Positions 34,934 to 51,998 of a stretch of DNA of 64,000 bases are shown here, piece after piece (position 1 is the first letter of the stretch; each line of letters starts with the position of its first letter). Origin of the DNA: Cytobacillus firmus (lineage in GTDB: Bacteria; Bacillota; Bacilli; Bacillales; Cytobacillaceae); NCBI RefSeq assembly GCF_023612095.1, contig NZ_CP086235.1, forward strand, positions 889,001-953,000, in the 5' to 3' direction. A program made the position numbers and the translations under genes. The notes beneath the pieces are model-generated. The model did no database searches, was not told the origin of the DNA, and worked only from the letters and a program-made list of their open reading frames with translations.

Positions 34934-35110
34934 CTCTCTTATCCCGAGCTGGTGGAGGGACAGGCCCTATGAAACCCAGCAACCTGCTAAAGGCAATAAT
35001 CAGCAAAGGTGCTAACCTGACGCAAGGACGTAATTCCTTGAACGATAAGAGTGAAAGGCGCGAATCGATTTGCTTTCAACCTTTTCACTAATGAGAAGGT
35101 TTTTTATTTT
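34934..35110 (+). ncRNA. SAM-I (S-box) riboswitch with terminator, metK leader
   Basis: P1 arms CTCTTATC (34935) and GATAAGAG (about 35044) enclose the conserved S-box core: GAGCTGGTGGAGGGA, GGCCCTATGAAACCCAGCAACC and AAAGGTGCTAA. Downstream AACCTTTTCAC/GAGAAGGTTTTTTATTTT (35078-35110) is the terminator formed when SAM is bound. It switches metK off when SAM is plentiful. Confidence 0.95.
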
Positions 35111-49896: not shown

Positions 49897-50673
49897 ATGG
49901 TACAAAATAAAGTCGTTTTTATCACTGGTGCAGCGCAGGGAATCGGGTATGAAATTGGTAAGAGATTTGCTGAACATGGCGCGAGAATTGTTCTGACAGA
50001 TATTCAGGAGGATGCCGTGAAAAAGGCTGCAGAAAACCTGCAGAATAAAGGCTATCAAGCACTTGGGCTAAAATGTGATGTGACATCAGAGTCCGATATA
50101 CAGGCGGCCATCAATGAAACTGTCAGCCGATTCGGTGCTTTGGATGTGCTGATCAATAATGCAGGGCTGCAGCATGTTTCCTTTATTGAAGATTTTCCCA
50201 CTGAGAAGTTTGAATTTATGATCAAAGTAATGCTGACTGCTCCATTCGTGGCAATAAAGCATGCGATGCCAATCATGAAAAAACAAAAATCAGGCCGGAT
50301 ACTCAACATGGCTTCCATTAACGGGCTTGTGGGGTTTGCTGGCAAGGCAGCATATAACAGTGCAAAGCATGGTGTTATAGGATTGACTAAAGTCGCGGCA
50401 TTGGAGGCTGCTGAACATGGCATTACGGTTAATGCCATCTGTCCGGGCTATGTAGACACACCACTCGTAAGAAATCAGCTGAATGACCTTGCTAAAACAA
50501 GAAATGTCCCCATCGAAAAAGCACTGGAGGAAGTCATTTATCCATTAGTGCCGCAAAAAAGGCTTCTGAAGGTGGAGGAGATTGCAGATTATGCGATTTT
50601 TTTGGCAGGTGATGCAGCTAAAGGAATTACGGGCCAGGCGGCAGTTATTGATGGAGGCTATACAGTTCAATAA
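49897..50673 (+). CDS. 3-Hydroxybutyrate dehydrogenase (short-chain dehydrogenase)
   Basis: Oxidises 3-hydroxybutyrate to acetoacetate with NAD. It is a short-chain dehydrogenase: TGAAQGIGYEIG (cofactor loop, about residues 9-20), NNAGLQHV, Ser in NMASINGLVG, YNSAKHG (catalytic Tyr and Lys) and CPGYVDTPLVRNQ with the family's HBDH-like tail. 258 aa. ATG 49897 lies seven bases after AAAGGAG; the frame is open to 49861. It matches B. subtilis YxjF. Second gene of the sigma-54 operon; a structured element lies just after the stop. Confidence 0.9.
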   Translation: MVQNKVVFITGAAQGIGYEIGKRFAEHGARIVLTDIQEDAVKKAAENLQNKGYQALGLKCDVTSESDIQAAINETVSRFGALDVLINNAGLQHVSFIEDFPTEKFEFMIKVMLTAPFVAIKHAMPIMKKQKSGRILNMASINGLVGFAGKAAYNSAKHGVIGLTKVAALEAAEHGITVNAICPGYVDTPLVRNQLNDLAKTRNVPIEKALEEVIYPLVPQKRLLKVEEIADYAIFLAGDAAKGITGQAAVIDGGYTVQ

Positions 50674-50675
50674 AG

Positions 50676-50960
50676 TGAAACTTCAATCAGTGGGGTTATC
50701 CCCCACTGATTGTTAGTTGAGGCCCACGGGAAGTGGGTCACAAAGACGTTGCCACAGGACAAGGAAAGCAACCGGCAGCGATACATCGCACGACCGAAAG
50801 CGTTAGCTTTTGGGAGGATGTGGCGTTCTTAGTCTTTGTCCATTTTTCGGGCATTTACGGGCAGTTTGACCCCCGCCTATCCTCCTTTGTGATTCCTCTG
50901 AGTCTTGAAGTGGGGGTCTTACTGCCCGTTAGACTGCAATAAGAATGCGCATAGCAGTTT
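50676..50960 (+). mobile_element. Compact structured element, HEARO/omega-RNA-like, IS605-type ends
   Basis: No transposase gene. Left palindrome CAATCAGTGGGG/CCCCACTGATTG (50684-50712). Right hairpin GGGCAGT-tt-GACCCCC paired with GGGGGTC-tt-ACTGCCC (50859-50927). Between them a folded RNA-like core. A GTGA lies at the left edge (50675-50678), the kind of target HEARO elements favour. Boundaries are estimates. It separates the dehydrogenase gene from its apparent terminator. Confidence 0.6.
50712..50840 (+). ncRNA. Putative HEARO/omega-RNA-like structured RNA
   Basis: Stems visible: GCCCAC/GTGGGT (50722-50738); AAAGAC/GTCTTT (50742 with 50832) continuing as GCCAC/GTGGC (50751 with 50820); inside, GCGA/TCGC (50778-50789) and AAAGC/GCTTT (50797-50810). 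Such a closed multibranch fold with terminal palindromes resembles RNAs that guide IscB/TnpB nucleases. No iscB or tnpB gene is nearby, so any function would be in trans. Family assignment is inferred. Confidence 0.5.
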
Positions 50961-50963
50961 TTT

Positions 50964-50995
50964 AGAGAGGGCAGAGAATGGCCCTCTTTTTCTAT
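50964..50995 (+). terminator. Terminator, probably of the dehydrogenase operon
   Basis: AGAGGGC, AGAGAATG, GCCCTCTTTTTC. It lies about 290 bases after the dehydrogenase stop, apparently moved there by insertion of the structured element. Confidence 0.75.
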
Positions 50996-51078
50996 TGTCC
51001 AGTAATGCGAATAAAACCTCTGAAAGTATGGGTATATTGTTGATACTGAATTGATGGCAGATAATTGGTGGAGATATT

Positions 51079-51597
51079 GTGTATTTATTATTGGTTGTAC
51101 TTGTCTATATTTTTTTTGCCTGGAAATTCGTCGATTGGAAAAGATGGAAAGAATACTATCCAACTGTCCAATTTTATATCATTGCCAACTTTCTATATAA
51201 TTTTTTATTTTATAATCATACCCTATGGGCCTATAGAGCAGTTACGCTGGATTGGCTGAATCACACGTTTATTGAAATCACCTTCACTTTGTTGATTATT
51301 CCAGTCGTCGTCATGATTTACCTTCGCTATTTTCCGGAAAAAAATCTAAAGAAAAAGATTTTTTATACTGGCGTGTGGATCGTTTATTTCTCAGTGCTGG
51401 AGTATTTGTTTTCTAAAAAGGGATTGTTTGTTTATGATAATGGGTGGAATTTCTGGTGGTCTGTGCTGTTTAATCTCATCATGTTCATCATGCTGCGAAT
51501 GCATTATAAAAAACCGGGAATTGCTATGGCAGTTTCGCTTCCTATCATTGCGATTCTATTATGGCTCTTTCATCCGCATCTGATCGATTTGAAATAA
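51079..51597 (+). CDS. Multi-pass membrane protein (CBO0543-like), unknown function
   Basis: GTG 51079 lies about five bases after GGTGGAGA. Five or so membrane helices are visible, separated by short aromatic loops (YLLLVVLVYIFFAWKF; YIIANFLYNFLFY; LLIIPVVVMIYL; VSLPIIAILLWLF). It has the form of the CBO0543 family of Firmicute membrane proteins. 172 aa. No catalytic motif. It lies between the structured element and leuS and is its own unit; 166 bases without a gene follow. Confidence 0.8.
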   Translation: MYLLLVVLVYIFFAWKFVDWKRWKEYYPTVQFYIIANFLYNFLFYNHTLWAYRAVTLDWLNHTFIEITFTLLIIPVVVMIYLRYFPEKNLKKKIFYTGVWIVYFSVLEYLFSKKGLFVYDNGWNFWWSVLFNLIMFIMLRMHYKKPGIAMAVSLPIIAILLWLFHPHLIDLK

Positions 51598-51735: not shown

Positions 51736-51756
51736 AGTCATATTCTTATACTAAAA

Positions 51757-51998
51757 TGCTTAGATAAGGAGCAGTAGTGGTGCAGCGCCCGTTTTAAGAG
51801 AGTTGACGGCAGGTGCAAGTCAGCCGGGCACATCATGAACTCGCCTTTGAGCAGCAAGTGTGAAATACCAGTAATGCTTGCCGTTTTCCGCGTTAAGGAT
51901 GAATGAAGCGAGTGACATGTTCACTAATGTGGGTGGTACCGCGGGAGATTTATACATAATCCTCTCGTCCCTTTTTTGGGATGAGGGGTTTTTTTATT
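51757..51998 (+). ncRNA. Leucine T-box leader of leuS
   Basis: The T-box sequence GGTGGTACCGCG lies at 51932-51943. The specifier codon CTC (Leu) is at 51840-51842 in the internal loop GAACTCGCC. The terminator CCTCTCGTCCC/GGGATGAGGGG plus T7 is at 51961-51995. Uncharged tRNA-Leu stabilises the antiterminator and switches leuS on. Confidence 0.93.

Follow-up and report, generated by a model that had tools for sequence, protein, structure and literature searches.

What is the strongly folded segment that separates the 3-hydroxybutyrate dehydrogenase gene (NF009093, 405 bits against a cut-off of 258) from its terminator in Cytobacillus firmus, and how did it come to lie there? A sequence-only reading of the window (the whole 64,000-nucleotide stretch of DNA analyzed here) had taken it for a stand-alone HEARO/omega-RNA whose guide would act with an IscB or TnpB supplied from another locus, citing a multibranched fold and a GTGA beside the left end, which is indeed present at 50675–50678. 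The Rfam analysis does not support this identity. When positions 50600–51000 were scanned on both strands with cmscan against the full set of 4227 families in Rfam, with E values up to 10 allowed, neither the HEARO covariance model nor any other omega-RNA family was matched, and the one match above its gathering score was RF01690 (56.1 bits) on the minus strand, opposite to the strand of the proposed guide. The protein searches lend the guide no support either: TnpB (PF07282) gave no match at E≤0.001 in the strain's own genome, with a control search positive in 6 of 14 genomes, so that a TnpB-linked element was rejected, and IscB (PF14239) gave no match in 19 genomes, a result that proves little as its control was silent in all of them too. 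Moreover, the branched core is missing altogether from 28 of the 39 complete copies of the segment in this genome. A guide RNA of the HEARO type is thus scarcely credible here, and the segment is instead an inserted, gene-less mobile repeat with hairpin ends. The other half of the earlier proposal, namely that the segment is an inserted, non-autonomous element standing alone and resembling IS605 in its features, is supported by the comparisons described below.

The segment recognized by the sequence-only reading is real, while the limits assigned to it (50676–50960) had to be redrawn: the insertion comprises 265 bp at 50674–50938 (plus strand, in the orientation of the finding), as delimited by empty sites in two congeners and by about 40 copies in the same genome, and is followed by a right ATAA at 50939–50942 (plus strand), placed by sequence and by the empty-site and junction comparisons. 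On its other side lies the left ATAA (50670–50673, plus strand; TTAT on the bottom strand), which contains the TAA stop codon of the dehydrogenase gene and occurs once in the empty site GTTCAATAAGAATG and twice in the filled one. The perfect 12-bp palindrome noted earlier forms the left hairpin (50684–50712; arms CAATCAGTGGGG/CCCCACTGATTG, loop TTATC), recognized from sequence and fold and maintained by compensatory changes across 123 unique copies. The long right hairpin (50857–50929) has 9 bp, a 2x2 internal loop, at least 7 further bp and a long loop; its arms are ACGGGCAGT/ACTGCCCGT plus the 7+7 pairing GACCCCC/GGGGGTC already described, and its stem shows compensatory changes in 137 unique copies. 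The tetranucleotide CTAA stands on the minus strand at the 5′ foot of both hairpins (50713–50716 and 50929–50932), and the corresponding TTAG of the top strand is found at the left foot in 143 of 155 anchored copies (7 of 162 being without an anchor) and at the right foot in 159 of 162. Between the hairpins lies the branched core closed by AAAGAC/GTCTTT and GCCAC/GTGGC, which the earlier reading had described correctly as branched without separating from it a 59-nt loop insert at 50760–50818; the surrounding structure is a Bacillaceae-1 module (RF01690; 50723–50848, minus strand). The fold surpasses that of dinucleotide shuffles (z = −6.65 on the plus and −5.54 on the minus strand, with 0 of 200 shuffles as good on either strand). 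No transposase-sized ORF is present in the element copies, and the only other ORF of at least 90 aa overlapping the element (50855–51163, minus strand) crosses the right end and runs out of it. Beyond the insertion, a terminator-like hairpin at 50964–50989 (plus strand), identified by site scan and in orthologous loci, has been displaced from the dehydrogenase gene. Elsewhere in the window, the plus strand carries five tRNA genes in a row (1–456, the first cut by the window edge), a SAM riboswitch (S box; 34936–35051, 78.1 bits) and a T-box leader (51752–51975, 123.6 bits) directly upstream of an ORF at 51981 that, named by eye, is presumably leuS-like.

Precise empty sites show that the segment is not ancestral. 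Among 10 congener loci (L094–L103) whose dehydrogenase genes are 90–97% identical, the element is absent within 130 bases of the stop codon in all 10; two of these, in genomes G001 (L094) and G010 (L095), can be aligned beyond the gene, the other eight being too different downstream to tell. In both, the empty site is exact (GTTC-AATAA-GAATGCGC) and the terminator closely follows the stop codon: these loci read GTTCAATAAGAATGCGC, and the window reads GTTCAATAA, then the element, then AATAAGAATGCGC. The same terminator hairpin lies about 25 bases past the stop codon in the two empty loci, in agreement with the earlier suggestion that it had been pushed away. Seven distinct loci, drawn from 27 pairs examined among 143 flank matches spanning a junction, carry a single ATAA when empty and ATAA on both sides when filled; the remaining spanning matches had diverged, represented tandem junctions or duplicate orthologs, or held a partial element at the site. 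The base before the left ATAA follows the target, and the base before the right ATAA is nearly always G. Since the target is ATAAG and the left junction ATAAA both in the dehydrogenase copy and in L002, only ATAA is repeated, and the A that follows it is part of the element. The left ATAAA is found in 142 of 158 copies and the right GATAA in 148 of 158, the latter figure being biased by a scan that required the right end. Tandem head-to-tail copies have one ATAAA in common (L118 and others). The ends themselves (AGTGAAAC on the left, GACTGCR on the right) form no terminal inverted repeats.

The sequence-only reading had named the lack of a HEARO match, the lack of other copies and an ancestral locus as findings that would count against it; the first was obtained, and the empty sites, together with the many further copies that a search of the same genome returned, contradict the second and third. 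This genome (one contig, 4.38 Mb) contains 104 whole or partial matches to the element, corresponding to about 40 dispersed copies, from which 39 complete left–right copies were assembled. Of these, 28 consist of the two hairpins only and measure about 155 bp (153–165 bp including a few flanking bases), four carry Bacillaceae-1 between the hairpins, two (the dehydrogenase copy and L002) carry Bacillaceae-1 with the loop insert, and five hold another module. The flanks of the 39 resemble one another no more than random sequences do (mean identity 0.27 on the left and 0.26 on the right), and all 39 copies lie outside the ORFs as called, many being near gene ends. A lone left hairpin was also seen (L034). 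The longest copy, L062 (about 616 bp), combines modules with a tandem repeat inside its left-hairpin loop and was for that repeat excluded from the 39; the repeat, at 1500–1790 of the locus (near 1616261 of the genome), consists of about five direct repeats of a unit of about 50 bp and is another large insertion into a loop.

Beyond this strain, some part of the query was matched in 16 of 18 congeners; in G016 the short-form query found nothing, and its matches are probably to the core only. Among the matches listed, the right end occurs in Cytobacillus firmus, C. oceanisediminis and another Cytobacillus, and also in strains labelled Bacillus, Paenibacillus or Sporosarcina globispora, and parts of the element were found in genomes of other families (G021, G025 and G029). 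A Pseudalkalibacillus plasmid carries the element with both stems altered and yet still paired. Spread by phage or plasmid was considered and set aside, there being no phage match and this one plasmid record. Two further loci deserve mention: a mini-derivative in C. firmus DS1 (L226), its left arm joined to the right end at a GTGGGGG that both have in common (ATAAAGTGAAACTTCAATCAGTGGGGGTCTTACTGCCCGTTAGACTGCGATAAA), and a group II intron (RF02001, RF01998, RF00029; L085 1876–2432, genome G029) about 170 bases beyond a divergent element copy. Within the open-licence papers searched, we did not find the repeat described.

The interior of the element is itself composite. The RF01690 match covers the full model (positions 1–67) and, at 56.1 bits against a gathering score of 35, makes the core a Bacillaceae-1 member by score, one that differs from the family in holding a 59-nt insert in one AGGA/UCCU loop and in being the passenger of a mobile element rather than a free gene. 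Medium-length copies, in which that loop is without the insert, read GCCACAGGACGTGGC, and the dehydrogenase copy reads GCCACAGGA, 59 nt and TGTGGC, with AGGA at both junctions of the insert (50756–50759 and 50815–50818). Across 92 raw core occurrences, of which a few were false matches inside genes, the spacing in loop 2 clusters at 9 (empty) and 67 (a 58-nt insert). Loop 1, too, is found with and without an insert, and the two loops occur in all four combinations. The position of the 58–59-nt module is thus precisely at AGGA, in one or the other Bacillaceae-1 loop or in both. It has 3 matches in the strain's own genome, 51 in G001 and 32 in G010; in 20 further regions examined among the 51 of G001 it lies nearly always in AGGA loops, six of these regions (L320, L324, L328, L331, L333 and L334) looking like loop-1/loop-2 hybrids. 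The inserts of loop 1 and those of loop 2 look like two distinct subfamilies, and this points to a few old events followed by copying of the whole, and the modules may either have entered the loops by insertion or have left them by slippage between the AGGA repeats.

Bacillaceae-1 in turn occurs in three settings: between the element ends, within the loop of the left hairpin, and in an unrelated repeat. The case in the left-hairpin loop comes from G013 (L079), where the match reaches 33.6 bits and so falls slightly short of the gathering score (35); L085 was rejected as a second such case because the Rfam search gave no RF01690 match at that locus. Another common Bacillus repeat (CTAGCTCCAGCGCCTACCCCCTCGAGGTC...AAGGCGCTTCCGCTTTTCTT) hosts both Bacillaceae-1 and the 58-nt module (L031–L040, L110, L111, L126–L128), and at L332 and L334 a module copy stands at its base. 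This hairpin-inside-hairpin build is unusual. It is possible, and we offer the idea tentatively, that hairpin loops serve as docking sites for smaller hairpin modules, nested and loop-targeted, which would move on single-stranded DNA, with RF01690 as one such mobile DNA module.

A working Bacillaceae-1 small RNA, of which the hairpins would merely be the ends, could instead be the selected function. Bacillaceae-1 was introduced as an RNA in the part of the original description available to us (PMC2864571), Rfam types RF01690 as an sRNA gene, and the core stems show compensatory changes in the 83 cores kept for stem counts (53 for the first stem). Because core and end stems alike show such changes, the pairing is selected. 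The G.U test in the core, however, gives counts of 42 and 20 that come mostly from one lineage and favor the strand opposite to Rfam's, so that the G.T versus A.C counts name no clear RNA strand and lean toward the top strand, which is neither the strand assigned by Rfam nor the active strand proposed below. A strand-specific sRNA was further set aside for want of a promoter-like site within 50600–51100. With the core absent from 28 of 39 complete copies and the same core present in an unrelated repeat and in the left-hairpin loop of G013, we judge this explanation improbable.

The reading that we favor, and hold to be somewhat probable, is that of a non-autonomous, MITE-like repeat that was inserted beside the ATAA/TTAT overlapping the stop codon and moved as a single strand in the manner of IS200/IS605 elements. 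Under this model, the bottom strand, which would be the active one, would be exposed on the lagging-strand template and fold into the two hairpins; a trans-acting transposase of the Y1/HUH type, now rare or lost, would bind both; CTAA at the 5′ foot of each would help to select the TTAT cleavage sites; and the resulting circle would be pasted in behind a TTAT. The interior would be passenger DNA, and the loops would tolerate further inserted modules. From its sequence, CTAA at both feet may be a guide tetranucleotide whose TAA could pair with TTA. This arrangement recalls IS608, for which the portion of PMC5934647 consulted describes insertion 3′ of TTAC, a guide tetranucleotide 5′ of each hairpin and site choice by T:A pairs.

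The distribution of copies with respect to replication is consistent with such movement. The bottom strand lies on the lagging-strand template in 27 of 39 copies in the strain's own genome, 31 of 41 in G001, 22 of 30 in G010 and 26 of 40 in G018, and other plausible positions of origin and terminus give 26–27 of 39, 29–32 of 41, 21–22 of 30 and 26–28 of 40, respectively. The bias is moderate, two of the four genomes are not significant alone at some settings, and the genomes have some copies in common. In the strain's own genome the origin was placed by GC skew at about 0.1–0.33 Mb, which leaves the count of 27 of 39 the same as with the origin at contig base 1, and gene orientation was only partly controlled (13 '<E<' versus 9 '>E>'); in G001, G010 and G018 the best 40 candidates were scored, G010 contributing the 30 of 35 matches that lie on its main contig. 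IS608 is known for a bias toward the lagging-strand template.

The enzyme required by this model was sought without finding a parent that has the same ends. Samples comprising 134 left–right pairs in loci of other genomes (none longer than 480 bp), the 39 own copies with L062, and the surroundings of 30 Y1 loci yielded no autonomous version. The strain's own genome has a single REP-type Y1 tyrosine transposase gene (L064 1291–1863, minus strand, at 443 kb; 191 aa), which scores 62 bits, below the NCBIfam cut-off of 80. No convincing similar ends surround it or 29 other Y1 loci (the best being 13 bases at E = 0.26), and PF01797 has no match in G001, G004, G010 and G013, all of which carry the ends; the resident REP-type Y1 was rejected as parent on the lack of such ends and of agreement with element presence. 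An IS200-like tnpA element of about 755 bp was observed in G008 (L251, L269) and G011 (L254), G008 having nine Y1 matches of equal score. All three copies begin right after or with TTAT at the left junction, so the genus may possess a Y1 enzyme that targets this tetranucleotide; their hairpins are unlike those of the element, and a TTAT-CGCAG-CTAA string near L254 was dismissed as an element end because no hairpin like the element's follows it.

The element is short, non-coding and present in scattered copies, and its empty sites are precise, as in a MITE. With IS200/IS605 ends (IS608, ISDra2) and their MITEs it shares subterminal hairpins, the lack of terminal inverted repeats, a fixed AT-rich tetranucleotide beside the end, a possible guide 5′ of each hairpin and the lagging-strand-template bias; it departs from IS200/IS605 in that no tnpA or tnpB was seen in its copies, the left and right junction tetranucleotides are the same and no coding parent was found. 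REP/REPIN sequences with their RAYT (TnpAREP) likewise have palindromes whose 5′ foot carries a fixed tetranucleotide, and the genome has its one REP-type Y1 gene. The foot of the element, however, is CTAA and not GTAG, its two hairpins are larger and unlike each other, four end-carrying genomes have no Y1 match, and the RAYT-like gene at L064 has no similar hairpin beside it, so that GTAG/CGTC-tagged palindromes flanking a RAYT gene are not what is seen here.

Because no transposase was found for the single-strand model, a mechanism like that of bcr1, with a duplicated TTTAT, is a serious rival. Here a conventional transposase or site-specific recombinase would make or use the TTTAT/ATAA duplication, and the hairpins would be recognized as double-stranded DNA or simply tolerated. 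Within the excerpts available, bcr1 of the B. cereus group measures 147 or 167 bp (Table 3, PMC2267715), about the size of the element, and is tied to TTTAT motifs and said to occur on plasmids (PMC6542083); like the element, it is short, non-coding, hairpin-rich and dispersed (PMC6542083, PMC2267715, PMC3733652). The junctions resemble a 4-bp duplication, TTAT at both of them being equally expected from one, several end-carrying genomes are without a Y1 match, and the G.T versus A.C counts in the end stems (98 vs 58) favor the top and not the bottom strand, which, like the modest extent of the orientation bias, weighs against the single-strand model. Yet a duplication predicts no asymmetry between the junctions, and departures from ATAA in the strain's own genome number 6 of 39 in the right tetramer against 1 of 39 in the left; it also leaves the fork-orientation bias unexplained, and terminal inverted repeats are absent. 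B. cereus-group plasmid records gave no match at E≤0.01, and, as far as its description goes, bcr1 would differ from the element, which has two different hairpins, a common foot tetranucleotide and exchangeable modules. We therefore consider the bcr1-like mechanism unlikely, while keeping it as the rival to be reckoned with. A resident structural repeat that acts in mRNA stability or termination and is not mobile would fit the absence of all 39 copies from called ORFs and the closeness of many to gene ends; given the precise empty sites in sister species, the unrelated flanks and the tandem head-to-tail copies with one common ATAAA, it is very improbable.

These results correct the HEARO call for this segment and describe an orphan family of hairpin MITEs whose empty sites are clean and whose proposed single-strand mechanism can be tested. 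They further suggest that RF01690, at least in Cytobacillus, is largely a passenger of hairpin repeats, and annotations of it as an sRNA gene need care. The element is also relevant to the question of how Bacillus repeats of the bcr1 type spread when no transposase is visible.
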